DNA from: Streptomyces sp. NBC_00525
Lineage (GTDB): Bacteria; Actinomycetota; Actinomycetes; Streptomycetales; Streptomycetaceae
Length of the DNA stretch: 64,000 nucleotides
Direction: 5' to 3'
Assembly (NCBI RefSeq): GCF_036346595.1
Contig: NZ_CP107834.1
Span: 5,828,001 to 5,892,000, forward strand
In this document: positions 5,089-41,123 of the stretch, one piece after another
How positions within the stretch are numbered: the stretch's first letter is position 1
How the letters are laid out: every line of letters starts with the position of its first letter
Made by a program: the position numbers and the translations under genes
Notes under the pieces: generated by a model
Seen by the model: only the letters and a program-made list of their open reading frames with translations
Databases searched by the model: none
Told to the model about the DNA's origin: nothing

Positions 5089-5146
5089 ATGCTATGTGCG
5101 GAAATGTTTTCCCGGCGGAAGTCGAGCGGCAGTAACCGGCGGCAGT
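5089..5146 (-). promoter_or_regulatory. promoter of the precursor operon with activator-type heptamer repeats
   Basis: On the minus strand ACTGCCG (5140-5146), ACTGCCG (5127-5133) and ACTTCCG (5116-5122) repeat at 13 and 11 bp. Exactly 21 bp later comes TAGCAT (5089-5094), a plausible -10. The same layout occurs before both NRPS operons and the operon at 41.0 kb. Confidence 0.65.
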
Positions 5147-5215
5147 TTCCGGCCCCGAAATTCCCTCCGAGAAGGCCCGGAAATCATGGCCGGCCGTATT
5201 CGGGGAGGGCATGCG

Positions 5216-5252
5216 AAAAGGCCGCGCTCCGCAGAGTGTGCGGGGCGCGGCC
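5216..5252 (-). terminator. terminator of NRPS operon B
   Basis: A 14-bp inverted repeat with one mismatch (5220-5233 with 5239-5252, loop of 5) is followed on the minus strand by TTTT. It lies just after the MbtH gene and before the precursor-operon promoter, so it separates operons B and C. Confidence 0.85.
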
Positions 5253-5268
5253 GGGGTCGGAAGACCGG

Positions 5269-5484
5269 TCAGGCGTACTGCTCGACCAGGCTGCGGGGGC
5301 GGATGTCGGTCCAGTTCGCGGTGATGTACTCCAGGGCGGCTGCCCGGTCACCGGCCCCCCAGACGCTGTTCCAGCCCGCCGGGATGTCGGCGAAGGCCGG
5401 CCAGAGGGAATGCTGGCCCTCGTCGTTCACCACGACGTGGAAGGAGCCCTCGGCGTCGTCGAAAGGGTTCACGATGTCGCTCAT
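5269..5484 (-). CDS. MbtH-like protein
   Basis: This 71-residue protein carries the MbtH family signature: [10 protein letters not shown], then [10 protein letters not shown], and TDIRPRSL near the end. MbtH-like proteins bind NRPS adenylation domains and support their folding or activity. Its ATG overlaps the stop of the upstream NRPS gene (ATGA), so it is made together with the terminating NRPS. It is the only MbtH homolog in the window and probably serves several A domains of the cluster. It is the last gene before the operon terminator. Confidence 0.95.
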
Positions 5485-8400
5485 GAATAACTCCTCGTTT
5501 CATTTTCCCGCAGGGTTTCTTCCTGCAGTGCGGAGAGTTTCTCCGCGATGACTTTCCCGATGTGTGCGAGAGGTTCTTCCTCGGTCATCCGGAGATGGCC
5601 GCATTCCACGGTGTGGTTCTCCGCCGTCCCGGTCAGGAACGGATTCCAGGTGGCGGCCAGCGCGCCTTCCGGTTCGCCGGGCCTGCGGGCCGTGAAGAAG
5701 ACCGCGCCGGTGTCGGCGACCCCGGGAACGTGCCGGGACATGAGCGTCGCGTGGGTCTCCGAGGCGCGCAGCACGGCCCGGATCTCGCCGACGCTGAACC
5801 CGCCCAGGACCGGGTCCTCGCGGCGCACCCGCTCCACCGCGGCCGGCAGCTCCTCCTCGCCCAGCGGCACGGCCGACTCCAGCTCCTCGGGCGGCAGCAC
5901 GGAGACACTGCCCGGCCCCGTCTGGTGGACGTCCATCAGCGCGAGCAGCTCGACCCGCTGACCGGCCGCGCGCAGCCGGACGGCCATGGTGTGCGCGACG
6001 ATCCCGCCGAAGGACCAGCCGAGCAGCCGGTACGGGCCCCAGGGCTGGACCTGCCGGATGCGCTCCAGATAGTCGTCGGCCATCTCCTCGACCGTGCGCG
6101 GCCGGTGACCGGGCTCGCTCAGCGCGCGGGCCTGGAGGGCGTACAGCGGCTGGTCGTCCCCGAGGTGGCGGGCCAGGCCCGCGTACGACCAGCCGACCCC
6201 GGTGCCCGGATGCACGCAGAACAGCGGGCGGCGGCTGCCCCGGACGTTCAGCGGCAGCAGCACCCCCATGGCGCCGGCCGTGCCGTCCGGGTCCTGCGCG
6301 CCGAGCAGCCCGGCCGGGGTCGGCGCCCGGAACAGGTCCCGCACCCCGCGGTCTACGCCCAGCACCGACCGCACCCGGCTCACCAGGCGCACACCGAGCA
6401 GCGAATGCCCGCCCAGGGTGAAGAAGTTGTCGTCGAGGCCGACCTTCGGCACGCCCAGGATCTCGGCGAACAGCCCGCACAGCACCTCCTCGCGTGCGTT
6501 GCGCGGCGCGCGGTGCGCGGCGGCCGGCCGGTCCGGCGCGGGCAGCGCCCGGCGGTCCGGCTTGCCGTTGACCGTCAGCGGCAGGGCGTCCAGGACCACG
6601 ACCGCCGAGGGCACCAGATGGGCGGGCAGCGCGGTACGGGCCAGGGCCAGCAGCTCCGCCCCGGTGACGGTGCGGCCGGCGCGCGGCACCGCGTAGCCGA
6701 CGAGGCTCCGTTCGCCCGGCCGGTCCTCGCGGACCACGGCGAGCGCCTGGCCGACCTCCGGATGGGCGGCGAGCGCGTGCTCGACCTCGCCGGGCTCGAT
6801 CCGTACCCCGCGCAGCTTGACCTGGCCGTCCGCCCGGCCCAGGAACCGCAGTTCGCCGTCCGGCGTCCACACCACCCGGTCGCCGGTGCGGTACATCCGG
6901 CTGCCGTCCGCCTCGAACGGGTCGGGCACAAAGCGTTCGGCGGTCAGGTCGGGGCGCCCGGTGTAGCCGCGCGCCACATGCGTACCGGCGATGTACAGCT
7001 CGCCGGGCACCCCCGGCGGCACGGGCCGCAGCGCGCCGTCCAGGACGTGGCTGCGGGTGTTGTCCATCGGCCGGCCCAGATGCAGCCCGGCCGCGCCGAG
7101 CGAGCCCCGGCCGCCGGTGAGCCACTGGTTGTGCGAGGCGAACGTCGTCTCGGTGGGCCCGTAGGAATGCACCAGGACGGTGTCCGGACAGTGCGTCAGC
7201 ACCCGCTGCACGGCGGCCGGTGACGCGACGTCGCCGCCCGTCCACACCTCGCGCAGCAGCCGCAGCGTGTCCAGCGCCTCGTCGGCCATCACATGGAACA
7301 GACCCACGGTGAAGTAGGCGGCGGTGACGCCGTGGTTCCGGACGGCACGCCCGGTCTCCGCGAGGTCGGTGCCGTCGCCCGGCACGATCACCAGACTGCC
7401 GCCGTTGATCAGCGGCACCCACATCTCGAAGACCGAGGCGTCGAACCCGGTCGCGGAGTGCACCAGCATCCGCCGAGGGCCGCCCGCCAGGACGTCGCGG
7501 TCGACGGCGAGTTCGGTGACGTTGCGATGGGTGACTCCGACGCCCTTGGGGCGGCCCGTCGAGCCGGAGGTGAACATCACGTACATCAGGTCGTCCCCGG
7601 CCACCGGTACGGCCTCGAACGGCGCCGGTACGGTGTCCCCGGCCGGTGCGTCGACCGGCAGCAGCGGTACGGAGACCTCGCCGGGCAGCGTGCCCGTGTG
7701 CGCGGTGTCGGTCGCGACGAGGCGGAGGCCGGCGTCCTCGACCATGAGCGCGATCCGCGCCGCCGGCAGGGCCGGGTCCAGCGGGACGTAGGCGGCGCCG
7801 CACTTGAGGACGGCGAGCGCGGTCACCACCAGCGGCACCCCGCGTTCGAGGAGCACCCCCACACTGTCGCCCCGGCGCACCCCGGCCGCGCGCAGCCGGG
7901 CGGCCAGCGCGCCGGCGCGGGCGTCCAGTTCGCCGTAGCCGACCGTCTCCGCGTCGGTGATCAGGGCGGGGCGGTCCGGCGTGAGCACGCCCCGGCGGGC
8001 GATCAGCTCGTGCACCGAGGCCCGGTCGCGGGTCGGCGTCGCGGTGTCGTTGTACTCGTGGACCAGCCGGAACCGCTCATCGGCGGTGAGCAGGTCCACC
8101 GCGCCGATCCGCGTCCCGGCGTCGGCGGCGACGGTGCGCAGCAGCCGCCCGATGTGCGCGGCGAGCAGCGCGGCCGTGCCGGCGCCGAACAGGTCCGTGG
8201 CGTATTCGAGGCCGCCCGCGAGACCGGCCGGCCGGCCCTCCTCGTCCTTGCGCTCCCACAGCGCGAGCGTCAGGTCGAACTTGGTGGACAGCTCCTCCAG
8301 CGGCGCCGGCTCGGGCCGCAGCAGCGGGGTCCCGGTGCCGGTGTCGGTTCCGGTGTCCGTGTAGTCGTGGTGGAGCTGTACGACGTACTGGGTGAGCGGG

Positions 8401-11400
8401 TGGTGGGCGGTGGAGCGGGCCGGGTTGAGATGCTCCACGATCCGGTCGAACGGCAGCCGCTGATGGGCGTAGGCGGCCAGGTCGGTGTCGCGTACCCGCT
8501 CCAGCAGCTCGGTGAACGCGGGATCGCCCGAGGTGTCGGTGCGCAGGACGAGCGTGTTGACGAAGAAGCCGACCAGATCGCTCAGCGCCTCGTCGTCCCG
8601 CCCGGCCGTCATCGTGGCCAGCGGCAGATCGGTGCCGGCGCCGTGCCGGGTGAGGACCGCCGCGAGGGCGGCCTGCACCACCATGAACAGCGTCGCGCCG
8701 TGGCGCCGGGCCAGCTCCTCCAGGGCCTCGTGCGTGGCGGCGTCCACGGTCAGCGGCGCGTGGCCGCCCCGGTGGGTCGCCTCCGCCGGACGCGGCCGGG
8801 CGGCGGGCAGTTCCAGGACGGGCGGCGCGCCGTCGAGCGCGCGTTCCCAGAAGGCGAGGTGGTCCTGCGCGCCGGGCCCGTCCAGGAGTTCCCGCTGCCA
8901 CAGGGTGTAGTCGGCGTACTGGACGGGAAGCGGCTCCTGCTCGGGCGCGCGGCCCTCGGCGCGGGCGGTGTACGCGGTGGCCAGGTCCGCGAGCAGCGGC
9001 CCGGTGGACCAGCCGTCGGCGGCGATGTGGTGCACCAGCAGCACCAGCAGCTGCCCGCCGCCGTCGTCCGGGGTCAGGAGCGCGGCCCGCAGCGGTATCT
9101 CCTCGGCGAGGTCGAACACATGCCCGGCCGCGGCCGCGACGGCGGCCCGGAACTGTCCGGCCGGCACCGTACGCACATCGAGCACGGGCCGCACGCCGGC
9201 CAGGATCTCCTGGTGCGGCTCCCCGTCGACCGACCGGTAGCGGGTGCGCAGCACCTCGTGCCGCGCGGCCACATCGGCCAGCGCCGAGGCCAGGACTCCG
9301 GCGTCCAGCGGCTGCCGCGGGCGCAGCACCAGCGGAATGTTGTACGAGGCGCTGGGCCCCTCCAGCGTGTCGATGAACCAGAGCCGGCGCTGGGCACGCG
9401 ACAGCGGCAGCCGGTCCGGACGCTCCATGCGCCGGGTCAGGGCCGGCCCCGCCCCTTCGGAGACCGGCCGGGCGACGGCGATACGCCGGGCCAGGGCGGC
9501 CGGGGTCGGCGCCAGCAGCAGATCCCGTACATGGACGTCGACGTTCAGACGGGCGCGCATCCGGTTGGCGAGCCGCACCCCGCTCATGGAGTGGCCGCCG
9601 ATGGTGAAGAACCCGTCGTCCGGGCCGACCTCGTCCAGACCCAGGATCTCCGCGAACATCGCCCGCAGCGTGTCCACGTACTCCGCCTCCGGTGCCCCGT
9701 CCGTCCGCGCGGCGGCCGCGGCCTCGGCGGCCCGCTGTGCGCGGAGCGCGGCGACCCGGGTCCGGCGGGCGGCCAGGGACCAGCGGTCGTCGGCGCCGAG
9801 CAGCTCCGTATCGGTGACGGGCGTTCCGGGGCGCTCGGCCGCCGTACGCAGGGCCCGTTCCAGGGCGCCCAGGAGGAGGCGGACGGTGCCCTCGTCCAGG
9901 ACGTCGCGGGCGTACTCCAGGCCGAGTTCCAGGCCGGCGGGCGTGCCGTCGGCGCCGCGGTGCTCCACGCACGCGGCGGTCAGGTCGAACTTGGTGGTCG
10001 CGGGGCCGTCCGCCCGGAAGCGGCCGGTCAGCCCGCCGAACGCGAACGGCGCGTCGTCCGGCGCGGCGGTGCGCAGGGTCAGCATCGTCTGGAAGAGCGG
10101 GTGCACGCCCGGTGTGCGCGGCGGGTTCAGCCGCTCGACCAGCAGGTCGAACGGGACGCCCTGGTGCGCGTAGGCGGCCAGGCTCGTGTCGCGTACCCGC
10201 TCCAGCAGCTCGCCGAACGCCGGATCGCCCGAGGTATCGGCCGGCAGGACCAGCGTGTTGACGAAGAAGCCCACCAGCGCCCCGAGCGCCTCGTCGTCGC
10301 GGCCCGCGACCGGTGTGCCCACGGCGACCCGCTCCCCGCACCCCGCCGCGCGCAGGGCGAGGGCGAGCGCGGCCTGCAGGACCATCAGCATGCTCGCGCC
10401 GTGCGCGTCGGCCAGCCGGACGAGCCGGGTGTGCGCGGCCGGTTCGAGCCGGGCGGTGACCAGGCCGCCCCGGTGGTCCGGCACGGCGGGCCGGGGCCGG
10501 TCCAGCGGCAGATCGGTGACGGCGGGCAGCCCGTCGAGCGCGGCCCGCCAGTGGGCGAGCCCGCGCGAGACGGCCGCGTCCGGGTCGTCGGGCGAACCGA
10601 GGACGTCGTGCTGCCAGAGGGTGTAGTCGGCGTACTGGACGGGAAGCGGCTCCTGTTCGGGCGCGCGGCCCGCCAGCCGGGCCGCGTAGGCGGTCGCCAG
10701 GTCGTTCATCAGCGGCGCCAGCGACCAGCCGTCACCCGCGACATGGTGCAGGAGCACGGCCAGCACCGCCGCGGGCCCGTCCCCGGCCCCGTCCTCCGGT
10801 ACGAACAGCGCGACCCGCAACGGCAGTTCCCGCGACAGGTCGAAGGACTCGGAGACGAAACCGGCGACCCGGCCGCGCAGTTCGGCCGCCGGGCACTCCA
10901 CCGTGCGGGCACGGACCACGGACGCGGCGAGCACATGCTGATACGGCTCGTCCTCCGGGGCGAGGAACACCGTGCGCAGCACCTCGTGGCGCTCCACCAG
11001 ATCGTGCACGGCCGCCGCCAGCGCCGTACGGTCGGGTATCCCGTCCAGCTCCAGCACGATCGGCATGTTGTACGCGCACGACGGGCCGTCGAGCTGGTCG
11101 AGCAGCCAGAGCCGGCGCTGCGCGTGCGACAGCGGCACCCGGTCCTCGGCGGGCAGCGGCTCCTCGTGGACGACGCAGAGCCGGGGGTCCGTGGTCCGCA
11201 GCACCTTGCGGTTGATCTTGCCCGAACTGGTACGCGGCAGCGCGGCGACGATGCCCACGGAGGCCGGTACGGCGGCGGCGGGCATCCGCTCACGCACCAG
11301 GGCGCGCAGCTCCTCGGCCCCGACGCCGCCCTCGGTGACGACGAAGGCGACGAGCCGCTTCACCCCGTCCGCGTCCCGCTGGGCGACGACGGCCGCCTCC

Positions 11401-12632: not shown

Positions 12633-12702
12633 CCTGGGGTTTCCTCCGCTTGGGGCCGAGAGACCGGGGCGGGCGATCGGTTCCTCTCGCCTCCGTGCTC
12701 CC

Positions 12703-12761
12703 ACGCTAGGGGCCCTGGACCGCCCCTCTCGGCAGTCCGCCCGGCAGCTCCGAGCGGCAGA
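12703..12761 (-). promoter_or_regulatory. promoter of NRPS operon B with heptamer repeats
   Basis: Minus-strand heptamers TCTGCCG (12755-12761), GCTGCCG (12742-12748) and ACTGCCG (12730-12736) repeat at 13 and 12 bp. They are followed after exactly 21 bp by TAGCGT (12703-12708). The start codon is about 70 nt further on. The block lies just past the operon A terminator. Confidence 0.65.
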
Positions 12762-12797
12762 AAGCGGGGGCGGGGAGCTGCCGCTCCCCGCCCCCGC
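12761..12797 (-). terminator. terminator of NRPS operon A
   Basis: A perfect 15-bp inverted repeat (12764-12778 with 12783-12797, loop of 4) is followed on the minus strand by TTT. It stands 17 nt after the stop of the C-T-C-T gene and upstream of the operon B promoter. Confidence 0.8.
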
Positions 12798-12813
12798 CCC
12801 TTCTCCGGTCACC

Positions 12814-15800
12814 TCATCCGCGCCGGGCGCCCGCCCGCGTACGGCGGCGCAGCGCCGGGGCCGCCGCGACCGGACCGGCGCCCTCCGGCTCGACCGCGTC
12901 CGCCACCGCCCCCAGCAGCCGCCCGGACAGCGTGGCCGCCGTCGGATTGCGGAACACATCGCGCAGCGTCAGGTCCTGGCCGAACTCGGCGCGGATACGG
13001 TTCAGCAGCCGCACCGCCAGCAGCGAGTGCCCGCCGGACTTGAAGAAGTTGTCGTCCGGGCCGATCTCCCGCCCGTCCAGCACCTCCCGGAAGATCCCCA
13101 GCAGCCGCCCGTCCGCGCCCCCGGCCCCCGCTCCGGCCCCGGCTCCGGGCGCGGGCGCCTCCTCCTCCGGCAGCGCGGCCGGGTCCTCACCCGGCTCGGG
13201 CAGCCGCGCCGCCCGCACCACCCGGTCCGGCGCCAGGTACTCCGGCAGCCGCTCGGCCGCCCAGGCACGCACCGCACCCTCGGCGGGCGGCGTGCCCGGC
13301 GCGCAGGTCACCACGGCCAGCAGCCGCCCGTCGCGGACCAGGACCCGCGCCCCCGTCACCGCCGGATGCCCGGTCAGTACGCCCTCGATCTCGCCCGGCT
13401 CCACCGGATACCCGTTCACCGTGTGCACGGCCACCGGCCGCAGCACCCCGCCCGCGTCCCGGTACGCCCGCCGCCCCGTGGCCCGCAGCCCGCCACCGGG
13501 CACCTCCTCGTGGACCTCGCCCGGCACCCGGACCGGGACCCGGCACCCCCGCGCGTCGAGCACCACCTCCGGACCGCCCGGCCAGGGCTCCTCCCCGCCC
13601 AGCGCGGACAGCGGCGCGCCCGGCTCGGCGGCGCACGCGTCCAGCAGCGCGGCCAGCCGGCGCACCAGCAGCCGGGCGGTGTCCGCGTCGTACAGCGCGG
13701 TCGCGTACTCCAGGACACCCCGCAGCCCGGCCGGCGCCCCGTCCCGGCCCACCGTCTCGGTCAGCGCGAACGTCAGGTCGGACTTGGCCCCGGCACCCCG
13801 GAACGGCACCGGCTCCCCGTCCAGCGAGGACCCGGCCGCCGAAGCGTCCCCGGCCCCCGCCGCGTGCACCTGGAGCATCACCTGCACCAGCGGCGCGTGC
13901 GCGGACGAACGGTGCGGGCTCAGATGCTCGACCAGCCGGTCGAACGGCAGGTCCTGATTGCTGTACGCGCCGAGACCCGCCTCCCGGACCCGGCGCACCA
14001 GCTCCGTGAACGCCGGGTCGCCCGACGTGTCCGTGCGCAGCACCAGCGTGTTCACGAAGAACCCGACGAGCGGGTGCAGCGCCTCGTCGCCCCGGCCGGC
14101 CACGGTCGTCCCGATCGCCAGATCCTCGCCCGCCCCGTGCCGCGTCAGCAGCGCCGCGAGCGCCGCCTGCACCACCATGAACAGCGTCGCCCCGTGCTGC
14201 CGGGCACACCGCAGCAGCGCCCGGTGCGTGTCGGCGCCCACCTCGAAGGGGGCGAGGGCGCCCCGGCCGTCCGGCTCGGGCCGCCGCGGCCGGTCCGTGG
14301 GCAGCGCAAGCAGCGGCGGCATCCCGTCCAGCGCGGTGCGCCAGTACGCGAGCTGCTCGCCGGCCACCCCGTGCTCGCCGTCCAGCAACGTGTGCTGCCA
14401 CAGCGTGTAGTCGGCGTACTGGACGGGCAGCGGCTCCCAGTCCGGCGCCCCGCCCGCGCACCGTGCCCGGTAGGCGCGGTCCAGGTCGGCGAGCAGGCAG
14501 CCGGTGGACCAGCCGTCCCCGGCGATGTGGTGCACCAGCAGCACCAGCACCTGGCCCCCGTCCGCCTCCTCGATCAGCCACGCCCGGAACGGGATCTCGG
14601 CCGCCAGGTCGAACACGTACCCGGCGGCGGCGTCCACGGCCGCCCGCAGCTCCCGCGGACCGTCCGCCCGTACGACGTCGAGCACCGGCTCGGCGTGCTC
14701 CAGCACCTCCTGGTACGGCTCGCCGTCCGCCGACCGGTGCACCGTCCGCAGCACCTCGTGCCGCCGTGCGACATCGGTGAGCGCGGCGGCGAACGCGGCC
14801 CGGCCGACCGGGCGGCGCAGCCGCGTCACCACGGGAATGTTGTACGTGGCGCTCGGCCCCTCCAACTGGTCGGTGAACCAGAGCCGTTGCTGCGCGGCGG
14901 ACAGCGGAAGCCGCGCGGGCCGCAGCGCGGCCGGCACCGGGCGCAGCGGCGGCCGGACCGGCCCGTCGCCCTGCTCGGCGAGCCGGCGCAGCAGCCGGGC
15001 CGGGGTGGGCGCCAGGAACACGTCGCGGATGGCGGCCTGGACACCGAGCGCCTTGCGGATGCGGTTGGTGAGCTTCCCGGCGAGGAGCGAGTGCCCGCCC
15101 AGCTTGAAGAAGCTGTCGTCGGGCCCCACCTCGTCGCGGCCCAGCACCTCCGCGAACAGGCCGCGCAGGATCTCCTCGCGCGGGTCGGCGCCCGCGCCGC
15201 GCCGCCCGCCGCCGTCGCGCGGCTCGCCCGGCGCTTCGGCGGTCTGCCGCGCGGCCCGGTCCAGCGCCTGGTGACGGCGGTCGATCTCCGCCCGCTCCGG
15301 GGCGGAGAGCAGCCCGGCCCGGCTGAGGGGTGTGCCGGCCGGCTGTTCGGCGTACGCGGTCAGCGCCCGGTCGAACAGGGTGAGGAGCAGCCGCGCCGTG
15401 TCCTCGTCGTACAGGTCGGTCGCGTAGCTCAGGCCGAGCAGTACTCCGCCGGGTTCGCCGTCCGGGCGGTACGTCTCGGCACAGTTGAAGCTCAGGTCGA
15501 ACTTGGCGGTGGCCAGGTCCGCGGCGTCGAGGGTGCCGGATACGGCCCCCAGGGCGCAGTGGGTGTCCTGCGCGGTCTGCGTGGTCAGCATGACCTGGAA
15601 GAACGGGTGCAGGCCGAGGGAGCGCTCCGGGTTGAGGTCCTCGACGAGCAGGTCGAACGGCAGGTCCTCGTGGGCCATGGCGGCCAGGTCCCGTTCGCGG
15701 ACCCGGTCGAGCAGCGTGCCGAGGTCCGGGTCGTCGGACAGGTCGGCGCGCAGGGCGAGCGAGTTGACGAAGAAGCCGACGAGGTCGTGCAGATCCTCCT

Positions 15801-16635
15801 CGGGCCGGCCCGCCACCGGAGTGCCCACGACCACGTCCGGCCCCGCCCCGGCCGCGGCCAGCGCGGCGCACAGGGCGGCCCGTGCGGTCATGAAGAACGT
15901 CGCGCGATGGGCGCGGGCGGTGGCGGCGAGCGCCTTGTGGGCGGTGGCGGAGAGGCGGGCGGTGACCAGCGCTCCCCGGTGGCTCGGTTCGGCGGGGCGG
16001 GGACGGTCGGCGGGCAGCCGGGTCGCGGCCGGGGCGCCGTCCAGCTCCGCGCGCCAGTGGGCGAGTTGTTCGTACGCCAGGCTGTCGGGGTCGGCGGGGT
16101 CGCCGAGCATGTCCCGCTGCCACAGCGCATAGTCCGCGTACTGCACGGGCAGGGGTTCCCACCCGGGTGCGCGGCCCTCGCACCGGGCCGTGTAGGCACG
16201 GTCGAGGTCCTTGAGCAGACAGCCGACGGACCAGCCGTCCGTCGCGATGTGATGGACGAGCAGCACCAGCACCGAATCGCCGCCGTGCACCGTGAACAGC
16301 CGGGCCCGCAGCGGCAGATCGCGGGTCACGTCGAACGGCAGCCGCGCGAAGGCGGTGACCCGCGCGTCCACGTCGTCGCCCGGCCCGCACGCGTGCACCT
16401 CCAGCCGCACGCCGGGATCGCCGACGATGTGCTGGTACGGCTCCCCGTCCACGGCCCGGTACACCGTGCGGAGCACTTCGTGGCGCTCCACCACGTCCCG
16501 CACCGCCGCCTCCAGGGACTGCCGGTCGGGCACCCCGTCAAGGCGCAGCACCACGGGCGCGTTGTACGCGGACGACGGACCTTCGAGACGGTTCAGGAAC
16601 CACAGCCGGTGCTGCGCGTATGAGAGGGGGATCAC
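12814..16635 (-). CDS. NRPS C-T-C-T protein with a relic adenylation domain
   Basis: This 1273-residue protein starts with GTG at 16635 (GAGGAG 9 nt upstream) and enters directly into a condensation domain ([18 protein letters not shown]). Domains: C1 1-430 (HHIATDG), T1 near 515 ([10 protein letters not shown]), C2 577-1010 (HHIAGDG), a stretch at about 1018-1148, and T2 near 1200 ([10 protein letters not shown]). The stretch resembles only the small C-terminal subdomain of an A domain: [19 protein letters not shown] is like the A8 core region, then [12 protein letters not shown]. The whole large subdomain with the ATP and amino-acid sites (TSGSTG, YGPTE) is missing, so the protein cannot charge its own carriers. 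Both T domains must be loaded in trans, for example by the A-T protein or by A1 of the terminating NRPS. The C-terminal tail PALRRRT recurs in the 4-module NRPS. Confidence 0.92.
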
Positions 16636-18539: not shown

Positions 18540-19567
18540 TTTCCGTACAGGGTGGTGGAGGGGGCGGAGGCGGGCGAGCAGTCGGACAGCGGCACCGGCT
18601 CACCCATGGCGACGAGGATCTTCCGGTCCCCGGTGAACGCCTCGCGGCCGTGCGCGCAGAGGATGTTGTCGACGAGCATCACGTCACCGGCCTGCCAGCT
18701 CTCCCGTACGGTGACCGCCTGGTACGCGTCGTTGATGGCGTCCACCTCCGCGTCGGTCAGGGCGGTGCCGTCGCCGAGGTAGGTGTTGAACGGCAGCCCG
18801 TCCGTGCCGAACGTCTCGACCAGCACCTCACGGACGTCCTCGTCCAGGCTGCGGGCGTTCCAGAACGCGAAGTGGTTGAACCAGACGCGCTCGCCGGTCA
18901 CCGGGTGCGTGATGATCGCCGACCGCCGCTGCCGGGTGCGCAGACTGTCCTCGTCCAGCCACTCGTAGCCGATGGCGTGCGCGTCGCAGTACTCCCGCAC
19001 CCCGGCCGGCTCCTCCGAGGAGAACGCCTTGCGCCACGGCATCCCCGCCAGTTCCGAGTAGTTGCGCACCAGCAGCCAGCCGGCCTCCGCGAACCGCGCG
19101 GTCAGCTCCGGCGGCAGCAGGGCCAGCGCGGCCCGCATGTCCCCGACGGTGGTGGCGCCGCCGGTCTCGGGCGCGGTGACACAGCCGAAGAGCAGCACAC
19201 CGGGGAAGTCCAGCGTGTAGCTGTTCTCGTTGTGCAGCCGGATCGGCTGGACGGCCGGCAGGTCCGTGGAGGAGAACACGCCCTCGCCGAAGTCGGTGCG
19301 CGGGGTCGCCTTCTCCTTGTACCCGGCCCGCTCCGCGACCAGCGCGTCCCGCGCCTCGGCGAACGTGGCCGCGTCCCGGACCGGCAGCCCGCGCAGCATC
19401 ACCGCACCGGACCGGTGCAACTCCGCCTGGATCGCGGCCTGCTGGGCGTTCAGCCACGCGGTGGCCTCCGCCATGGAGCCGAACTCCGGCGTATGGACGA
19501 TCACCGGCTTGCCGGGCTCCCGGACGGGAGCGATACCGGTGGCGGGCGGCTGGGCGAGAGCGGTCAC
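18536..19567 (-). CDS. TauD/SyrP-like Fe(II)/2-oxoglutarate dioxygenase (amino acid beta-hydroxylase)
   Basis: This 343-residue protein is of the TauD/TfdA fold and is most like SyrP- and KtzO/KtzP-type enzymes that beta-hydroxylate Asp or Glu tethered to an NRPS carrier. The iron site is visible as His-x-Glu in RLHNENSYT (around residue 115) and the distal His in NILCAHGREAF. The 2-oxoglutarate-binding Arg is in the following GDRKILVAMG. The GTG start at 19567 has AGAGGA upstream. It sits between the type II thioesterase and the glutamine-type A-T gene and overlaps the latter, so its likely substrate is Gln (or Glu) on that carrier, giving a 3-hydroxy residue. Stereochemistry cannot be read. 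Free-amino-acid hydroxylation, as by AsnO, is the main alternative. Confidence 0.88.
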   Translation of the reverse strand: MTALAQPPATGIAPVREPGKPVIVHTPEFGSMAEATAWLNAQQAAIQAELHRSGAVMLRGLPVRDAATFAEARDALVAERAGYKEKATPRTDFGEGVFSSTDLPAVQPIRLHNENSYTLDFPGVLLFGCVTAPETGGATTVGDMRAALALLPPELTARFAEAGWLLVRNYSELAGMPWRKAFSSEEPAGVREYCDAHAIGYEWLDEDSLRTRQRRSAIITHPVTGERVWFNHFAFWNARSLDEDVREVLVETFGTDGLPFNTYLGDGTALTDAEVDAINDAYQAVTVRESWQAGDVMLVDNILCAHGREAFTGDRKILVAMGEPVPLSDCSPASAPSTTLYGK

Positions 19568-33064: not shown

Positions 33065-33119
33065 GGGGTCTCCTGTGTGTCTCGCGGCGGAACGGGGCGG
33101 CTGAGGAGCGGGCAGTGCC

Positions 33120-33206
33120 ATACAACCGCCGGGGTCGAGCGTGGAGCGGCAGTTGTTCCGGCGGGAGGCCAGCAGTTCGACGGCACTGCGGCAGTCGGAC
33201 GGCAGC
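33120..33206 (-). promoter_or_regulatory. promoter of NRPS operon A with a six-copy heptamer array
   Basis: On the minus strand the array reads GCTGCCG (33200), ACTGCCG (33189), AGTGCCG (33181), ACTGCTG (33170), CCCGCCG (33159) and ACTGCCG (33147). Spacings are 11, 8, 11, 11 and 12 bp. After exactly 21 bp comes TTGTAT (33120-33125), a possible -10 about 55 nt before the start codon. It is the most extended array of the four related promoters. Confidence 0.65.
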
Positions 33207-33308
33207 CCCGAAACCGACCCCGTCCCGGCCGCACGGCGATATGCGCCCCCGCCCCGACCGCCCGGCCCGATCACCGCGCCGATACGCACCCCGCCCTGTG
33301 GCGGCGGC

Positions 33309-34667: not shown

Positions 34668-35014
34668 GAAACGACTCCTGCTCGTCGGGGAGGAGCACCC
34701 CGGAAGCGGCTGCGGGCCGGGGTGCCGTGGAGGACGGCTGTCGTGCCTTGCTGCTGCCGCCATGCTCCGCGCACCGCCTATCCGGAAGGCATCGCGCCGC
34801 CAACGCCGGTACGGCCCGCCCCACCGGCGCCGTGATAGCGGGCCCGTACGGGGGAAGGGCAGGTCAGCGGCCCGCGATCGTGGGAGCGCGACCAGCGGAA
34901 GCCGGCTCCAGCGCCGTGATAGCGGGGCGATAGGGGCGGGGGCGGTGCCGTGAATCCGGCTGTTCCTAGCTTGGTGTCCAGAAGGAAACGGAACACCGAC
35001 GAAGGGACAGTCCG
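34668..35014. promoter_or_regulatory. divergent control region between XRE/NB-ARC regulator and small peptide gene
   Basis: These 347 bp hold no gene. Two copies of GCGCCGTGATAGCGGG begin at 34827 and 34911, exactly 84 bp apart (eight helical turns). The second copy continues as GCGATAGGGGCGGGGGCGG. The minus strand has a related GGATAGGCGG at 34784-34793, upstream of the regulator gene. A possible -10 for the peptide gene is TAGCTT (34967-34972), flanked by the inverted repeat TGTTCC (34961) and GGAACA (34990). These are candidate operators for the cluster regulators. Confidence 0.5.
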
Positions 35015-35215
35015 ATGACGAAGAACACCACCACCCGCAACGCCCTCCGCGCCGCCTTCGCCACCGTCGCCGTCGTGATCGTCACCGGCATCGGCGTCCA
35101 GGCCGGCTGGGCCGACGACGCCTCCGGCACCGGCACCCAGCCGACCGGCACCAGCAGCACCGCGACGCCCGCCCCGACCACCACCGGCTCCACCGACAAC
35201 AACCCCTGGGACTGA
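35015..35215 (+). CDS. small secreted peptide, possible signal
   Basis: This 66-residue peptide has a basic N-terminus and a hydrophobic segment (residues 13-30) ending in QAGWA, then a short Ser/Thr/Pro/Gly-rich mature part that finishes DNNPWD. The pattern fits a secretory signal peptide with cleavage after AGWA, leaving about 34 residues. GAAGGGAC precedes the ATG as ribosome binding site. It is transcribed away from the XRE/NB-ARC regulator and lies upstream of the convergent SARP-type gene. No family was recognised. An exported peptide read back by a neighbouring STAND-type regulator is a possibility, by analogy with peptide-sensing systems. It occupies the position of afsS beside afsR but does not resemble AfsS. 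Confidence 0.65.
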   Translation: MTKNTTTRNALRAAFATVAVVIVTGIGVQAGWADDASGTGTQPTGTSSTATPAPTTTGSTDNNPWD

Positions 35216-35251
35216 CCTCCCCCGAATCGCCCCGGAGTTGGCGCAGGGACT

Positions 35252-38200
35252 CTAGCCCGCGCCGAGCAGCCGCCGGGTCTCCGCCAGTTCCCGCTTCATA
35301 CCCCGGCTCGTGAAGACCTCCAGCGCGGGGGCCAGCAGCTCACGGGAACGCCCCGGCTCGTCCGCCAGCAGCCGCGCCAGATCCAGGCGGGCCAGCGCAC
35401 CACCACCGAAGTCCATGATCTGCTCCCGGGCCGCGACCGCCCGGTCGAAGAAGTACGTGGCCCGGTCCGGCCGGCCCATCAGCACGAAGGCCTGACCCAG
35501 GTCCCGCAGCAGATGCCCCTCGCCGATCACATCACCGGAATCCCGGCACAGCTCCAGGACCTCCGTGAACGTCAGCACCGCGAGATCCAGCTCGCCCCGC
35601 TCCAGCAGGAGCTGGCCCACCCGGCGCAGCGTCCGCGCCCGGCCGCCGAGATAGCCCACCCCGTCGTAGATCTCCAGCGCCTCGTCCAACTGCGCCTGCG
35701 CCGCGTCCGTCTCGCCGCGCCGCATCCGGATGTGGGCGCTCTGCGTCAGCACGATCGCCCGCCCCACCACGTCACCGGCCCGGTCGAAGTCGGCCAGCGA
35801 CCGCTCGTACAGCTCCAGCGCGATGTCGTCCTCGCCGTTCGTCCGGGCGATCAGCGCCATGTCGCGGCGGCACAGCGCCTCGCCCTGCGGCTCGTCCAGC
35901 GCCTGGAACACGTCCAGCGCCGAACTGAGCGCCTGGCGGGCCATGTCGAACTCGTTGCGGCACATGTACAGCGAACCGAGCGAAGCCCGAACGGCGGCGG
36001 TGCCGCGCAGATTTCCGGCCTTGCGCACGGCGGCCAGCGCCCGTACGTGGGTCTGCTCCCACAGGTCGTAGTGGCCCCGCACCTCGAACAGGGTGACCAG
36101 GGTCGTCGCCAGGTTCCAGCTCACATCGTGCAGACCCTCGTCGGCGGCGTGCTCCACCATGCCGCACAGCGCGCCCTGCTCCGCGTCGAACCAGGCCAGC
36201 GGATCGGCGAGCAGATCACCCGTGCACGACGGGGGCGGCGCCCAGCGCGGCGCGTCACCGTGCAGCACGGTGAAGTCGCCGCCGTACACCTTGCGATGGG
36301 CCTCCTGCGCCAGATACATCCAGCCGCCCGCCATCCGCGCGAGCGCGTCCCGGCGCACCTCCGGGCCGTCGTGCGCGGCCAGTTGCTCGCGCGCGTAGAC
36401 GCGGATGATCTCGTGGAACTGGTAGCGGTAGCCGCCGGTCCGCTCCACGCCGACGACGTCCAGCATCTGCATGTCGACCAGCGGCTCCAGCAGATCGGAC
36501 GGAACCGGCCGGTCGTCGTCCAGGAGCGCGCCCGCCAGCCAGCCCGGCAGCGACGGCGTCCGCGACATGCTCAGCAGTCGCAGCAGCCCCCGGTCCTCGG
36601 GCGCCAGCCCGTTGTACGTGAGGGAGAGACTGGCCCGCATCGTCATCTCGCCGTGCGCCAGCTCGTCCAGCCGGTGCCGTTCGTTGGCGAGCCGGTGCAC
36701 CATCGACGCCAGCGTCCAGTGCGGCCGGGCCGCGAGCCGGGCGGCCACGATCCGCAACGCCAGCGGCAGCCGCCCCACCGTACGCACCAGCGCCTCCGCC
36801 GACGCGGCCTCGCCCTCGACGCGCTCCTCCCCGATGATCCGCGACAGCAGCCGCAGCGCCCGCTCCTCGTCGAGGACGTCCAGCTCCACGCGGTACGCGC
36901 CCGGCAGCGCGGTCAGCCTGGCCCGGCTGGTCACCAGCACCGCGCAGTCACGGCTTCCCGGCAGCAGCGGCTGCACCTGGCTCTCCGTCGCCGCGTCGTC
37001 CAGGACGACCAGCACCCGCCGGGAGGCGAGCCGGGTGCGGTACATCTCCGCCCGCTCGTCCAGCGAGTCCGGGATGAGCTGGCCGGGTATGCCCAGGGCC
37101 CTCAGAAAACGGCCCAGCACCTCCAGGGTCGTCGCCGGGGTGCCGGTGCCGCGCAGATCGCAGTACAGCTGACCGTCCGGGAACCCCGTCTCGGCGAGCC
37201 GGTGCCCCAGGTTCACGGCCAGCGTCGACTTGCCGGTGCCCGGCTTCCCGGTGATCACCGCCAGACCGACCGCCTTGCGCTCCCGGCCCCCGGTGAGCGC
37301 CTTCTCCAGCGCGGCGAGCTGTGCGTCGTCCGCCACGAAGTCGGAGGTGGCGGCGGGCAGTTGCTGCGGGCGCGCGTCGTGCGGCTGCGCGTCGCCGTCC
37401 CCGGACCGGGCGGCGGCGCCGTGCGGCGGTACGGGGTCCGCGCCCTGCGCACGGTGTGCCTGCTGCCGGACGGGCGGGGCGGCGGATTCGACGGACCCGG
37501 TGGATTCGGCGGATTCTGCGGATTCGGCGGCCCCGGCCCCGGCCCCGCCGTCACGCGGCCGGGGCGGCTGGACACGCGCCGGCGCCGGCAGCTCACCGGC
37601 CAGGATCGCCGACTCCAGACGCCTCAGCTCCCGGCCCGGCTCCAGACCCAGCTCCTGGTCCAGAATCCGGCGCCCGTCCCGGAACGCCTCCAGCGCCTCC
37701 GCCTGCCGGCCCGACCAGTACAGGGCGCACATCAGCTGACCGCGCAGCCGTTCCCGCAACGGGTTCTCGTGGGTGAGCAGTTGCAGCTCCCCGACGAGCC
37801 GGTCGTACCGACCCAGCTCCAGTTCCAACTGCGTTCGCAGCTCGATCGCGCTCAGCCGCTCCTCGTCCAGCTGCCGCGCCTTGTTGGCGAGCGGGCCGCT
37901 CTCCAGGCCGCTCAGCGAATCGCCCTGCCACAGCGCCACCGCCGACTTCAGCAGCGCCACCGCCTTCTCCGTCTCGCCCTCGTCGCGCTGCCGCCTGGCC
38001 ATCGCGACCAGACCGGTGAACAGCAGCGAGTCCACGTCTCCGGTGTCGACGTGCAGGACGTAACCCGGCGGCCGGGTCGATATCGAGACCGTGCTGTCCG
38101 CGCCGACCAGCAGCTTGCGCAGCCGCGACACACAGATCTGCACCTGTGTACGGGCGGTCTCCGGCGGGTTGTCCTCCCAGATGAGGTCCACCAGATAGTT

Positions 38201-38458
38201 CGTGCCGACCACCCGGTTTGCCTCGAGCAGAAGGGCGGCGAGGATGACCTCCTGCCGACCGGGCGGCACCCGCAGCGGGCCGTCCTTGCCCCGTACCTGG
38301 AGCGGACCCAGCAATTGAAAGGGCGGTCTCGACGCGCCGGGGGCATCCTGGACCGTGTGCGTCGTACCCTCGGCCACCGAGACCCCCAGCTCGTAAGCGC
38401 GTTGATACTCCGGGATCAACGACCCCAAAGTTTTCACAACCCTCACGCATCTGTCCAT
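35252..38458 (-). CDS. SARP-type (AfsR-like) regulator: winged helix, BTAD, NB-ARC, TPR
   Basis: About 1068 residues if it starts at ATG 38458; the start is uncertain, since no good ribosome binding site is seen and GTG 38437 or TTG 38488 are possible. Domains: OmpR-like winged helix about 47-120 (FQLLGPLQVRGKDG, then SRLRKLL), bacterial transcriptional activation domain about 125-290, an Ala/Glu/Ser-rich linker, NB-ARC ATPase with Walker A GKPGTGKST (404-412) and Walker B RVLVVLDDA (about 480), then TPR-like repeats to the end. SARPs bind direct heptamer repeats about 11 bp apart upstream of cluster promoters. Such repeats lie before four promoters here, so this is the first candidate for their activator. 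It is transcribed convergently to the small peptide gene and divergently from the SnoaL-like gene. Confidence 0.9.
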   Translation of the reverse strand: MDRCVRVVKTLGSLIPEYQRAYELGVSVAEGTTHTVQDAPGASRPPFQLLGPLQVRGKDGPLRVPPGRQEVILAALLLEANRVVGTNYLVDLIWEDNPPETARTQVQICVSRLRKLLVGADSTVSISTRPPGYVLHVDTGDVDSLLFTGLVAMARRQRDEGETEKAVALLKSAVALWQGDSLSGLESGPLANKARQLDEERLSAIELRTQLELELGRYDRLVGELQLLTHENPLRERLRGQLMCALYWSGRQAEALEAFRDGRRILDQELGLEPGRELRRLESAILAGELPAPARVQPPRPRDGGAGAGAAESAESAESTGSVESAAPPVRQQAHRAQGADPVPPHGAAARSGDGDAQPHDARPQQLPAATSDFVADDAQLAALEKALTGGRERKAVGLAVITGKPGTGKSTLAVNLGHRLAETGFPDGQLYCDLRGTGTPATTLEVLGRFLRALGIPGQLIPDSLDERAEMYRTRLASRRVLVVLDDAATESQVQPLLPGSRDCAVLVTSRARLTALPGAYRVELDVLDEERALRLLSRIIGEERVEGEAASAEALVRTVGRLPLALRIVAARLAARPHWTLASMVHRLANERHRLDELAHGEMTMRASLSLTYNGLAPEDRGLLRLLSMSRTPSLPGWLAGALLDDDRPVPSDLLEPLVDMQMLDVVGVERTGGYRYQFHEIIRVYAREQLAAHDGPEVRRDALARMAGGWMYLAQEAHRKVYGGDFTVLHGDAPRWAPPPSCTGDLLADPLAWFDAEQGALCGMVEHAADEGLHDVSWNLATTLVTLFEVRGHYDLWEQTHVRALAAVRKAGNLRGTAAVRASLGSLYMCRNEFDMARQALSSALDVFQALDEPQGEALCRRDMALIARTNGEDDIALELYERSLADFDRAGDVVGRAIVLTQSAHIRMRRGETDAAQAQLDEALEIYDGVGYLGGRARTLRRVGQLLLERGELDLAVLTFTEVLELCRDSGDVIGEGHLLRDLGQAFVLMGRPDRATYFFDRAVAAREQIMDFGGGALARLDLARLLADEPGRSRELLAPALEVFTSRGMKRELAETRRLLGAG

Positions 38459-38487
38459 CCTGCCTGCCGAGCGTGACCGTCCCGCCA

Positions 38488-38509
38488 ATAGCGGCGCGAT
38501 AGGCGGGGG
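38488..38509 (+). promoter_or_regulatory. GATAGCGG/GATAGG-type motif in the SARP/SnoaL-like intergenic region
   Basis: The sequence AATAGCGGCGCGATAGG followed by a G-rich run closely resembles the element at 34919-34940, and is framed by CCCGCC and GGCGGG. It lies between the divergent SARP-type and SnoaL-like genes. It may be an operator of the XRE/NB-ARC regulator or of the SARP itself. Confidence 0.4.
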
Positions 38510-38556
38510 TTGGCGGGGGCCGGAAGAGTGCCGGGTGAAAGAGAAAGGAGGCGTCC

Positions 38557-38961
38557 ATGCACACCGACGCCTGGACGACCACAGCCCCGCACCCGGCGGA
38601 CGACCTGGTCACCGCCGCGGGCACCGACCACGTCCGCCTCGTCTACGACTACCTCGACGCCGGAGACCTCGACGCGTGCGCCTCGCTGCTGCACGAACAC
38701 GTCCAACTCGACCTGCCCGGCGCCCCGTCGGCCCACGGCCGCACCGCCTTCCTGCGCGCCCACCGCGACCACCTCGGGGCGCCCGCCCGCCACGAGATCG
38801 ACCGCGTCGTCGCTCGCGACCGCAGCGTGGTGGTCACCGGCCGACGCGTCGGCACTGGCACCGGCACCGACGACACCCCGGCGCGCTTCGTCGACTTCTT
38901 CCGCATCGCGGGGGACGGCATGGTGGAGTCCTGTACGCGCTACTACCACGCGGAACCCTGA
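38557..38961 (+). CDS. SnoaL-like (NTF2-fold) protein
   Basis: This 134-residue protein starts at ATG 38557 behind an excellent AAGGAGG. The pattern VRLVYDYLDAGDLDACASLL, then [14 protein letters not shown] and a C-terminal DFFRIAGDGMVESCTRYYH is that of SnoaL-like members of the NTF2 fold. These are small cone-shaped proteins that may be cyclases, hydroxylases or of unknown role. It is transcribed divergently from the SARP-type gene and ends 25 nt from the convergent metallophosphoesterase gene. A tailoring or binding role in the cluster is possible but unproven. Confidence 0.75.
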   Translation: MHTDAWTTTAPHPADDLVTAAGTDHVRLVYDYLDAGDLDACASLLHEHVQLDLPGAPSAHGRTAFLRAHRDHLGAPARHEIDRVVARDRSVVVTGRRVGTGTGTDDTPARFVDFFRIAGDGMVESCTRYYHAEP

Positions 38962-38986
38962 CCGGGCCGCGCATCCGGTGGTCGTG

Positions 38987-40198
38987 TCAGGGAGTCACCG
39001 GGGAGCGCAGCACGAGCAGGGTGATCTCGCTGGGCGCGAAGACGCGGAACGGCGGCCCCCAGAACCCGGTGCCCCGGCTGGTGTAGAGCAGGGTGCGCCC
39101 ACCGTGGCGGCTGAGCCCGGCGACGGCGGGCTGGTCGAGCCGGACCAGATGGTGGAAGGGCCAGATCTGGCCGCCGTGGGTGTGGCCGGAGAGCTGGAGG
39201 TCGACCCCGCCCTCGGCGGCCCGGTCCACGAACTTGGGCTGATGGGCCAGGAGCAGCACCGGCAGTCCGGGGTCGGCGCCCGCCAGCGCCCCGGCGAGAT
39301 GGGCGCGGTGGCCGGCCAGCCCGGAGGACTCGGCGGTCACGTCGTCCACCCCGGCGACGACGAGGGTGTCCCCGCCGCGTTCCAGCAGCACATGGCGGTT
39401 GCGCAGCGGCTGCCAGCCCAGCTCATCCATCAGGTCCACCCAGCCCTGGGCCTCGCTGTAGTACTCGTGGTTCCCGGTGACGTAGACGCGGGCGTGGGCG
39501 GCGCGCACGGTGCCGAGCGGGGCGGCCTGGGCGCGGCGGCGGTCGGCGGTGCCGTCCGCGATGTCACCGGTGTGGCAGACCAGGTCCGCGTCCAGCGCGT
39601 TGACCTTCGCGCACACCCGCTCCGACCAGCGGACCCGGTCGAGCGGCCCGTAGTGGGTGTCGGTGACGAGGACGACGCGGGTGCCGTCCAGCCCGGCGCC
39701 GAGCCGGGGCAGCTCCACATCGAGTGACCGTACGCGCGGTACGCGGCGCGCTTCCGCGTACCCCCAGGCCAGCAGCGCGGCGGCGACGCCGAGGACCGCC
39801 CAGGTGACGATCCTGGCCCGCGTCTGCCCGTCGCCGCCCGCGCCGGTCAGCGCCAGGGCGGGCCGCAACAGCGCGCCGAGGAGCACGGACCAGGTGAACA
39901 CCACCCAGACCGCCCCCAGGAGGGTGTCCCCGAGGATCGCCGCCCGGTCCCGCTGCCGTCTGCCGTGCCCGCGCACCATCGCGAGCGGCATCGTGACGAG
40001 GCCGAGGACGAACAGACAGGTGCCGCCCGCCGTCACGGGCAGCGGCCAGTCCTGACCGGTGTACAGCAGCACCCAGCACGGCACGGCCCACAGCAGCACC
40101 GGCGCGATCAGGGGGACGTAACGCATCACGCGGCGCAGCGCGCCCGGCCGTGCCGCGCCGTCCGCGGCCGCGGGCCGGGCCTCGTCGGTGTCGGTCAC
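38987..40198 (-). CDS. membrane-anchored metallophosphoesterase (YkuE/YaeI-like)
   Basis: This 403-residue protein starts with GTG 40198 (GAGGAGG 6 nt upstream). Four hydrophobic helices in the first 150 residues (for example YVPLIAPVLLWAVPCWVLLY) are followed by a calcineurin-like phosphoesterase domain. All metal motifs are present: DTHYG (about 190), GDIADG (about 215), GNHEYY (about 245) and GHTHGG (about 340). Relatives act on lipid-linked or envelope phosphate esters. Nothing links it to the NRPS product, and it may be a housekeeping gene inserted between cluster genes. It converges with the SnoaL-like gene. Confidence 0.88.
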   Translation of the reverse strand: MTDTDEARPAAADGAARPGALRRVMRYVPLIAPVLLWAVPCWVLLYTGQDWPLPVTAGGTCLFVLGLVTMPLAMVRGHGRRQRDRAAILGDTLLGAVWVVFTWSVLLGALLRPALALTGAGGDGQTRARIVTWAVLGVAAALLAWGYAEARRVPRVRSLDVELPRLGAGLDGTRVVLVTDTHYGPLDRVRWSERVCAKVNALDADLVCHTGDIADGTADRRRAQAAPLGTVRAAHARVYVTGNHEYYSEAQGWVDLMDELGWQPLRNRHVLLERGGDTLVVAGVDDVTAESSGLAGHRAHLAGALAGADPGLPVLLLAHQPKFVDRAAEGGVDLQLSGHTHGGQIWPFHHLVRLDQPAVAGLSRHGGRTLLYTSRGTGFWGPPFRVFAPSEITLLVLRSPVTP

Positions 40199-40294
40199 GG
40201 TTGTCCTCCTCGGCCGGCCGGAATGCCGCGGCGCACTGTACCCGCTCGCCCCGGACCCCACGCCTCCGGCGGGTACCACCGGCCGCATGGCGAA

Positions 40295-40320
40295 GCCCCG
40301 CCGGACGGGTCCGGCGGGGC
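40295..40320 (-). terminator. hairpin after the Cys-rich protein gene
   Basis: An inverted repeat GCCCCGCCGGAC / GTCCGGCGGGGC lies 15 nt after the stop at 40335, followed by TTC on the minus strand. It has a strong stem but a very short loop and U-tract. Confidence 0.55.
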
Positions 40321-40334
40321 GAGGAACGGGACGA

Positions 40335-40799
40335 TCAGCCGGCCTCGGCGGCGATCCACGCGTCCAGCTGTTCGCGGGTGGTGCTGGGGTCCGCGATCAG
40401 TCCGGACAGTTCGTCGTCGGCGAGATGCCGGGTCGAGACCGCCGGACAGCGCCGGCACCCCTCGACACCGCTCTGGGCCCACCACTGACACCGCGCCCGC
40501 AGATGGCAGCGCGGAACGTTCGACTCGGCGGCCGGAGGTGCGGCCAGCACCCGTTCGATGAGGGTGCAGTCGTTGCCCCGGCGGTTGGCGCAGCCCGAGA
40601 CACAGTGCGAGGCGAACCGCAGGACGCGCCGCGGTTCGACTCCCTCGGGCACATCGCCCAGCACCTGCGACGCCGGTACCGGATCGGCCAGGTACACCAC
40701 CCGGCCGTCCTGCCCGGAGCGCACACCCAGCACGACCGACTCGGGCGCGTGGGCGTCACCGCTCGGACACCAGCTCGTCGGGGTCTCCTTCTCGTCCAC
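40335..40799 (-). CDS. Cys-rich protein of unknown function
   Basis: This 154-residue soluble protein has a GTG start at 40799. The middle and C-terminal part hold regularly placed cysteines: SHCVSGC, then GNDCTL, then PRCHLRARCQWW and GCRRCPAV, with one more Cys near the N-terminus (eight in all). The pattern suggests a bound metal or Fe-S cluster, or a redox role, but the family was not recognised. It lies 18 nt downstream of the gene for a secreted 70-residue peptide. The pair is preceded by the same repeat-N21-TAGCGT promoter as the NRPS operons, so it is probably expressed with the cluster. It could process, modify or sense the peptide; this is speculation. Confidence 0.7.
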   Translation of the reverse strand: MDEKETPTSWCPSGDAHAPESVVLGVRSGQDGRVVYLADPVPASQVLGDVPEGVEPRRVLRFASHCVSGCANRRGNDCTLIERVLAAPPAAESNVPRCHLRARCQWWAQSGVEGCRRCPAVSTRHLADDELSGLIADPSTTREQLDAWIAAEAG

Positions 40800-40817
40800 G
40801 GTCCTCGCCCCCCGTTG

Positions 40818-41030
40818 TCAGACGATCTGGCCGACCGGGTCGGTGCCCAGGGGCCCGCCGGCGTCCAGGTGGGTGGCCTGCTCGATGTGCGCCTTCAGCT
40901 GCTCCAGCGACGTGATGCGCTCGCCGTTGGCGGGCGCGGCCGATGCCGTGGTCGCGCCCGCCACGAGGAGGCCGGCGGCGAGGAGGGCGGCGGCGCCGGT
41001 GGCCGCCGCCGTGCGGGACGAGTTCTTCAT
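40818..41030 (-). CDS. small secreted peptide in the NRPS regulon
   Basis: This 70-residue protein has a classic Sec signal peptide: MKNSSRTAAATG, a hydrophobic stretch AAALLAAGLLVAG, and a cleavage site at ASA or ASAAPA. The predicted mature part is about 38 residues, acidic and Gly/Pro-containing, ending DPVGQIV. GGGAG precedes the ATG at 41030. It is the first gene of a two-gene operon with the Cys-rich protein. The promoter copies that of the NRPS operons (ACTGCCG, 21 bp, TAGCGT). No cysteine occurs in the mature peptide. No family was recognised; a signal, immunity factor or ribosomally made precursor are all possible. Confidence 0.72.
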   Translation of the reverse strand: MKNSSRTAAATGAAALLAAGLLVAGATTASAAPANGERITSLEQLKAHIEQATHLDAGGPLGTDPVGQIV

Positions 41031-41066
41031 GGTCGACTCCCTGATGCTGGGGACGTGGTTGGCTGC

Positions 41067-41123
41067 ACGCTATGCGCCGGTCCACGGCCCGGACGGCAGT
41101 CGCGGCGGCGGTTGACCGGCAGT
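41067..41123 (-). promoter_or_regulatory. promoter of the secreted peptide / Cys-rich operon with heptamer repeats
   Basis: Minus-strand heptamers ACTGCCG (41117-41123), ACCGCCG (41106-41112) and ACTGCCG (41094-41100) repeat at 11 and 12 bp. They are followed after exactly 21 bp by TAGCGT (41067-41072), about 37 nt before the ATG. Confidence 0.65.

Follow-up and report, generated by a model that had tools for sequence, protein, structure and literature searches.

Four operons of a nonribosomal peptide synthetase (NRPS) cluster in Streptomyces sp. NBC_00525 are preceded by promoter-like sites of one design, and the question that this locus raises is which protein reads it. The cluster lies in a stretch of 64,000 nucleotides (C1:5828001-5892000 of the 7.1-Mb genome), hereafter the window, and encodes two candidates side by side, a large AfsR-type Streptomyces antibiotic regulatory protein (SARP) and a regulator that joins an XRE-type helix-turn-helix (HTH) to a STAND ATPase, here called the XRE-STAND protein. 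A sequence-only reading had described the four sites, proposed one design for all of them and pointed to the SARP as a reader, while remarking that the distance to the -10 was unusual for a SARP and that another protein, such as the XRE/NB-ARC neighbor, might bind. The observation, the shared design, the remark on distance and the caution all stand; the SARP as reader is unsupported. We think it probable, from the comparison of related loci, that the XRE-STAND protein reads sites 1 to 4 as one regulon, with the SARP acting one step above it.

All four sites read as had been described (Table 1). Each has at least three boxes near CTGCCG at 11-13 bp, then exactly 21 bp and a -10-like hexamer; in site 1, ACTTCCG replaces ACTGCCG as the last box, and site 3 has two further boxes upstream. 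Sites 2 and 3 stand before NRPS genes and site 4 before the gene for a 70-residue peptide. Site 1 precedes a B12-subunit gene whose ATG, at 5081, comes 7 nt after the hexamer, and its transcript is probably leaderless. Taking the first base of the hexamer as -12, the last box spans -40 to -34 and the other boxes lie near -52 and -64, and the CTGCCG-type boxes would thus occupy the place of a -35 element. We propose that the four sites serve as promoters of a single regulon and depend on an activator. Directly upstream of site 2 (approximately 12775-12815), reading by eye reveals a perfect hairpin, rich in GC and with TTT after it, which resembles a terminator for the NRPS gene before it; site 2 would in that case begin its own transcription unit.

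The heptamer ACTGCCG alone is not enriched in the window (14 found, 16.9 expected). The composite is: requiring a box with no more than one mismatch, N21 and T[AT]NNNT in succession gives four matches over both strands of the window, all of them sites 1 to 4. The pattern CYGCCG-N5..7-CTKCCG-N21-TWNNNT, which was fitted to the four sites, also finds exactly these four in the whole genome, against one match for the reversed control, while a looser one-box pattern gives 7 genomic matches, 3 of them at these sites, against 18 for its control. The scattering of equal matches over unrelated genes that would have spoken against a common design was thus not seen with the fitted pattern in this genome. 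No CTGCCG array of this design stands before the XRE-STAND or the SARP gene in a scan of the window.

The 21-bp gap is also constant in relatives. A search with the SARP yielded 30 related loci, 29 titled Streptomyces and 1 titled Microtetraspora. With gaps of 15-27 bp permitted, site 3 was matched 34 times, once in the window, 23 times among the 30 relatives and in 10 loci added later, and the gap was 21 in every case. Site 3 is absent from one of the 30 relatives (L028) and from one later locus (L222), though the sequence past the XRE-STAND gene is present in both; the remaining six relatives are loci that stop short of the site. Among 32 distinct site-3 sequences, the mean column identity is 0.86 in the second box, 0.54 in mid-gap and 0.46 downstream, a comparison that leaves out the last box and the hexamer since both were required by the search. 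For site 2, the gap is 21 in 8/8 relatives with 20-22 permitted, and site 4 is present in all five relatives that have the 70-residue peptide gene, by a rule with the gap fixed at 21. The site 1 gap is 21 in five relatives by rule and in three more by eye (L072, L074, and L076), and 20 in L075. In eight of nine relatives, 6-7 nt separate the site 1 hexamer from the ATG, as would be expected of a leaderless transcript, and this supports the assignment of that hexamer.

Domain matches bear out the identification of the gene at 35252-38458 as SARP type. The XRE-STAND protein matches HTH_3 with 34.9 bits (cut-off, 23) and HTH_31 with 33.5 bits (cut-off, 27), and its ATPase has a P-loop with nucleotide-binding, helical and winged-helix parts, which places it among the STAND (NB-ARC) proteins. 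The chain stops at the winged-helix part, with no repeat-family match in Pfam, and in its predicted fold the ATPase resembles CED-4 and the NLRs. Of 229 Streptomyces genomes searched, 42 have homologues (E < 1e-25), and 35 of 50 homologues share the HTH helix SVRAIRDLE without a change.

The SARP and XRE-STAND genes adjoin in 27 of the 30 relatives, the other three loci stopping inside the SARP gene, so those clusters cannot separate the two candidates. A pattern search of 295 Streptomyces genomes returned 9 matches and its reversed control 10, so the number is not in itself significant. Four of the 9 are site-2 orthologues (own genome included), three lie between an XRE-STAND homologue (36-38% identical) and a glutamate mutase operon, one stands before a homologue of the 70-residue peptide gene, and the last is in L079, where a partial XRE-STAND homologue lies ∼10 kb from the match and the contig has no BTAD domain. 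The three mutase clusters (G051, G316, and G068) have a BTAD gene 38-40 kb away and do not separate the SARP from the XRE-STAND protein either. Genome G262 was considered as a counterexample, with a SARP near and no XRE-STAND gene within 20 kb, and was rejected when a homologue was located ∼29 kb off.

We therefore compared loci of XRE-STAND homologues, a first set from 19 further genomes and a second set from 17 more, with 40 control loci, 20 of other large SARPs (six genomes, own included) and 20 arbitrary stretches. A first rule required an exact last box, a previous box with at most one mismatch, a gap of 20-22 and TANNNT; it was written after five of the ten loci of the first set had been seen, and within that set it found arrays in 6/10 loci with no match to the window SARP against 1/40 controls (L160). 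By a second rule (either two exact boxes or three that each deviate at no more than one base, before TANNNT), settled after the loci had been seen, arrays with gaps of 20-22 occur in 10/18 such loci and in 0/40 controls at any gap of 12-30.

These 18 loci were at first taken as SARP free from tblastn; a BTAD profile then revealed a small SARP in L139, L143, L144, and L216. Among the 14 loci with no BTAD domain in the stretch (11-20 kb, plus ∼20 kb each side for G029, G098, G083, G126, and G106), six have an array by the second rule (L141, L208, L209, L210, L212, and L215) against 0/40 controls (p = 1e-4). Counting one orthologous group once gives 5/11 (p = 2e-4), and the second set alone gives 5/7 (p = 1e-5). 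Among the matches listed by a genome-wide search, which stop at weak ones, the XRE-STAND gene has no BTAD domain within 190 kb in either G029 or G083, and in G098 there is none on the contig that carries the gene. Of the XRE-STAND loci with a distant SARP, 5/6 have arrays at exactly 21. A matrix trained on 42 sites, all from SARP-containing clusters, also separates XRE-only loci from controls (p = 2e-4 for the first set and 4e-4 for the second), with the largest difference at gap 21; ten loci beat all controls, but L139 and L214 score at hexamers without TA and are unconvincing. At 11 of 13 sites examined in XRE-STAND loci, an open reading frame (ORF) starts 42-267 bp downstream, several of these being NRPS genes, and none was found downstream of the sites in L141 and L142.

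Two groups of arrays differ from the window design. L139, L143, L144, and L216 are related loci with a divergent HTH (SPRTIRALE) as well as the small SARP, and their arrays have CTGCCT boxes and a gap of 22. In L136 (G106), two TTCTGCCG tandem arrays lie beside the XRE-STAND homologue, near 18990 and 14800, the first with a hexamer at gap 24 and the second with no hexamer by the rule.

Several points weigh against the XRE-STAND protein as the reader. The second rule carries hindsight; the first rule, fixed before the second set was obtained, found only 3/8 new loci (L209, L210, and L216) against 1/40 controls (p = 0.012), and 2/7 when only SARP-free loci are counted (p = 0.054). The absence of a SARP applies to stretches of the length given above, and the genome-wide search placed a BTAD domain 34 kb from the XRE-STAND gene in G126 and 29 kb from it in G166. 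The large SARPs of the control loci are only 30-42% identical to the window SARP and may differ in specificity. The matrix also gives p < 0.01 at gaps of 17, 23, 25, and 27, with a secondary peak at 17. XRE-type HTHs are usually known on palindromes, and the proposed operator is a direct repeat. Finally, 8 of the 14 SARP-free XRE-STAND loci have no array by the second rule. That last figure would suit some other regulator, encoded outside the cluster or unrecognized inside it, to which we give little chance: a general regulator should have sites elsewhere and the fitted pattern finds none in this genome, and an ORF comparison over the 18 loci (strict filter, 207 ORFs) found no non-XRE family in more than 6 loci while recovering the XRE-STAND family in 10.

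A separate candidate box lies beside the SARP gene. The repeat CTATY-N6-CTATY occurs twice in the window against 0.00 expected, before the SARP start and, between the two regulator genes, ∼250 bp before the XRE-STAND start. The copy at the SARP gene has the features of a SARP box, an 11-bp direct repeat about 9 bp from a -10-like hexamer and adjoining a SARP gene; by eye, in the window, its second heptamer CTATTGG is followed by 9 bp and CACGCT. Of the 30 relatives, 18 carry the CTATC repeat before the SARP gene, before the XRE-STAND gene or at both positions, and the pattern finds it in none of the remaining 12. Among loci not used for its discovery, 9/11 with a close SARP have it. By contrast, it was found in 0/14 XRE-only, 0/4 small-SARP, 0/7 distant-SARP, and 0/20 large-SARP control loci, and in one of the 20 arbitrary stretches, L169, which holds a SARP 41% identical to that of the window. 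The ATCG core of the CTATC box resembles the AfsR repeat, CGTT(T/C)ATCGNN (PMC10972967). A small secreted-type peptide ORF also seems, by eye, to be present on the plus strand at approximately 35000-35215, and the CTATC repeat between the regulators could serve this ORF as well as the XRE-STAND gene.

The initial view was that the SARP occupies the ACTGCCG repeats and activates the four operons from there, binding one turn farther upstream than SARPs normally do and, relative to PimR boxes, on the opposite strand. It was later downgraded and is now an unlikely explanation. Arrays of the same design stand in loci that have no BTAD domain; close relatives of the SARP are tracked by the different CTATC repeat; and the last box is 21 bp from the -10, as opposed to about 8-9 bp for the proximal repeat at SARP promoters. 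In the AfsR complex, the box spans -40 to -19 (PMC10936776), so the last box at sites 1 to 4 takes the place of the AfsR upstream repeat. In favor of the SARP, a large SARP gene lies within the cluster, SARPs typically have repeats spaced by about one helical turn, and clusters that hold both regulators do not discriminate between them. Read on its other strand, ACTGCCG is CGGCAGT, which resembles the PimR boxes CGGCAAG and CGGCAGG, the former lying on the pimM coding strand (PMC5930380, PMC3367932). Arrays were found in 0/20 loci of other large SARPs by the second rule and 1/20 by the first. Because the CTATC repeat is missing from these loci too, specificity evidently changes among SARPs within this span of identity, which makes the lack of CTGCCG arrays there weak evidence; more weight goes to the arrays in loci free of a SARP.

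Joint binding, for example with the XRE-STAND protein on the boxes and the SARP as coactivator at the same promoters, would fit the adjoining genes in clusters of the window type, and SARPs contact RNA polymerase widely (PMC10936776). We nevertheless rate it as quite improbable, given that the design occurs where no SARP was found and that, by eye at sites 1 to 4, the 21-bp gap holds no box-like repeat at the position of the downstream AfsR repeat.

Under the preferred reading, with the XRE-STAND protein on the boxes, the SARP would read the 11-bp CTATC repeats at its own promoter and before the XRE-STAND gene and activate both, and the XRE-STAND protein would then act on the four operons. Its ATPase module would join several protomers so that their HTHs come to lie on consecutive boxes, and the promoter-proximal protomer would help RNA polymerase, standing in for a good -35.

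The resulting promoters share with those of SARPs (the AfsR afs box and the PimR operator of pimM) direct repeats about one helical turn apart, a setting in an antibiotic cluster and a poor -35, and with the PimR operator the number of three repeats. They differ in spacing (11, 12, or 13 bp here, an 11-bp period for SARPs), in having the box on the strand opposite to that of PimR, and in co-occurring with XRE-STAND rather than SARP genes, as in 6 of the 14 XRE-STAND loci with no BTAD domain in the stretch. In placing a SARP-type protein above another regulator that acts on biosynthetic operons, the proposed order recalls the PimR-PimM hierarchy of polyene clusters; here, the second regulator is XRE-STAND and not PAS-LuxR, and the SARP is of the AfsR type whereas PimR is a SARP-LAL protein.

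MalT, a STAND ATPase activator, offers a precedent for an ATPase switch fused to an HTH with direct-repeat sites upstream of the -10. In the XRE-STAND protein, unlike MalT, the HTH is N-terminal and of the XRE type, and the chain ends at the winged-helix part with no repeat domain seen. Compared with CED-4, the plant NLR resistosomes and Apaf-1, the HTH takes the place of a death or coiled-coil domain; identity is ∼15%, and the likeness is one of predicted fold only.

More broadly, and tentatively, at close to even chances, we suggest a family of antibiotic-cluster activators with an XRE HTH and an apoptosome-like STAND ATPase, which would form an ordered oligomer on at least three CTGCCG boxes spaced by one turn and activate the promoter from about two turns away, at a constant distance; the code would mark target operons across many Streptomyces clusters and make the regulon predictable from sequence. 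In the literature searched, no paper was recognizable as describing an operator for XRE-STAND cluster regulators. If the promoter code can be read, operons could be matched to the regulators that control them, the SARP and its neighbor could be told apart in function, and the one gene whose expression would wake silent clusters could be picked out. The system would also offer a compact bacterial model of how an NB-ARC switch is coupled to transcription.

Table 1. Promoter sites, repeats and genes of the cluster, with genes in order of transcription (minus strand). Numbers within site sequences are box spacings in bp; N21 is the gap.
Feature	Position	Strand	Details
Site 1	5089..5146	minus	boxes 5140-5146, 5127-5133, 5116-5122; gap 5095-5115; -10 5089-5094; ACTGCCG -13- ACTGCCG -11- ACTTCCG, N21, TAGCAT
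Site 2	12703..12761	minus	boxes 12755-12761, 12742-12748, 12730-12736; gap 12709-12729; -10 12703-12708; TCTGCCG -13- GCTGCCG -12- ACTGCCG, N21, TAGCGT
Site 3	33120..33206	minus	boxes 33200-33206, 33189-33195, 33170-33176, 33159-33165, 33147-33153; gap 33126-33146; -10 33120-33125; last three boxes ACTGCTG -11- CCCGCCG -12- ACTGCCG, N21, TTGTAT
Site 4	41067..41123	minus	boxes 41117-41123, 41106-41112, 41094-41100; gap 41073-41093; -10 41067-41072; ACTGCCG -11- ACCGCCG -12- ACTGCCG, N21, TAGCGT
CTATC-N6-CTATT direct repeat	38487..38502	minus	11-bp period; before SARP start
CTATC-N6-CTATC direct repeat	34918..34933	minus	between SARP and XRE-STAND genes
Secreted-type peptide, 70 aa	41030-40818	minus	after site 4
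Cys-rich ORF, 154 aa	40799-40335	minus	after site 4
Metallophosphatase		minus	between Cys-rich ORF and SARP
Large AfsR-type SARP	35252..38458	minus	Trans_reg_C, BTAD, NB-ARC, TPR; proposed upstream regulator
XRE-STAND regulator, 452 aa	33309..34667	minus	N-terminal HTH_3/HTH_31, NB-ARC-like ATPase; proposed reader of sites 1 to 4
Four-module NRPS	33064-20405	minus	after site 3
Thioesterase		minus	after four-module NRPS
TauD oxygenase		minus	after thioesterase
A-PCP protein		minus	after TauD oxygenase
NRPS with two C domains		minus	after A-PCP protein
NRPS with thioesterase (TE) domain	12632-5481	minus	after site 2
Glutamate mutase B12 subunit	5081-4671	minus	after site 1
MutE fused to asparagine-synthetase-A-like enzyme, one ORF	4707-2290	minus	after site 1; NCBIfam NF005052, 408 bits (cut-off, 368)

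The cluster is of the peptide-antibiotic kind, and its product is probably a lipopeptide. No TTA codon was present in the five genes checked. Neither the 70-residue peptide nor the Cys-rich ORF had a Pfam or NCBIfam match; the peptide also has a homologue behind an array in G262, a distant genome. The MutE fusion and the adjacent B12 subunit probably supply 3-methylasparagine. In several relatives, the MutE/asparagine-synthetase-A-like match falls into two pieces.

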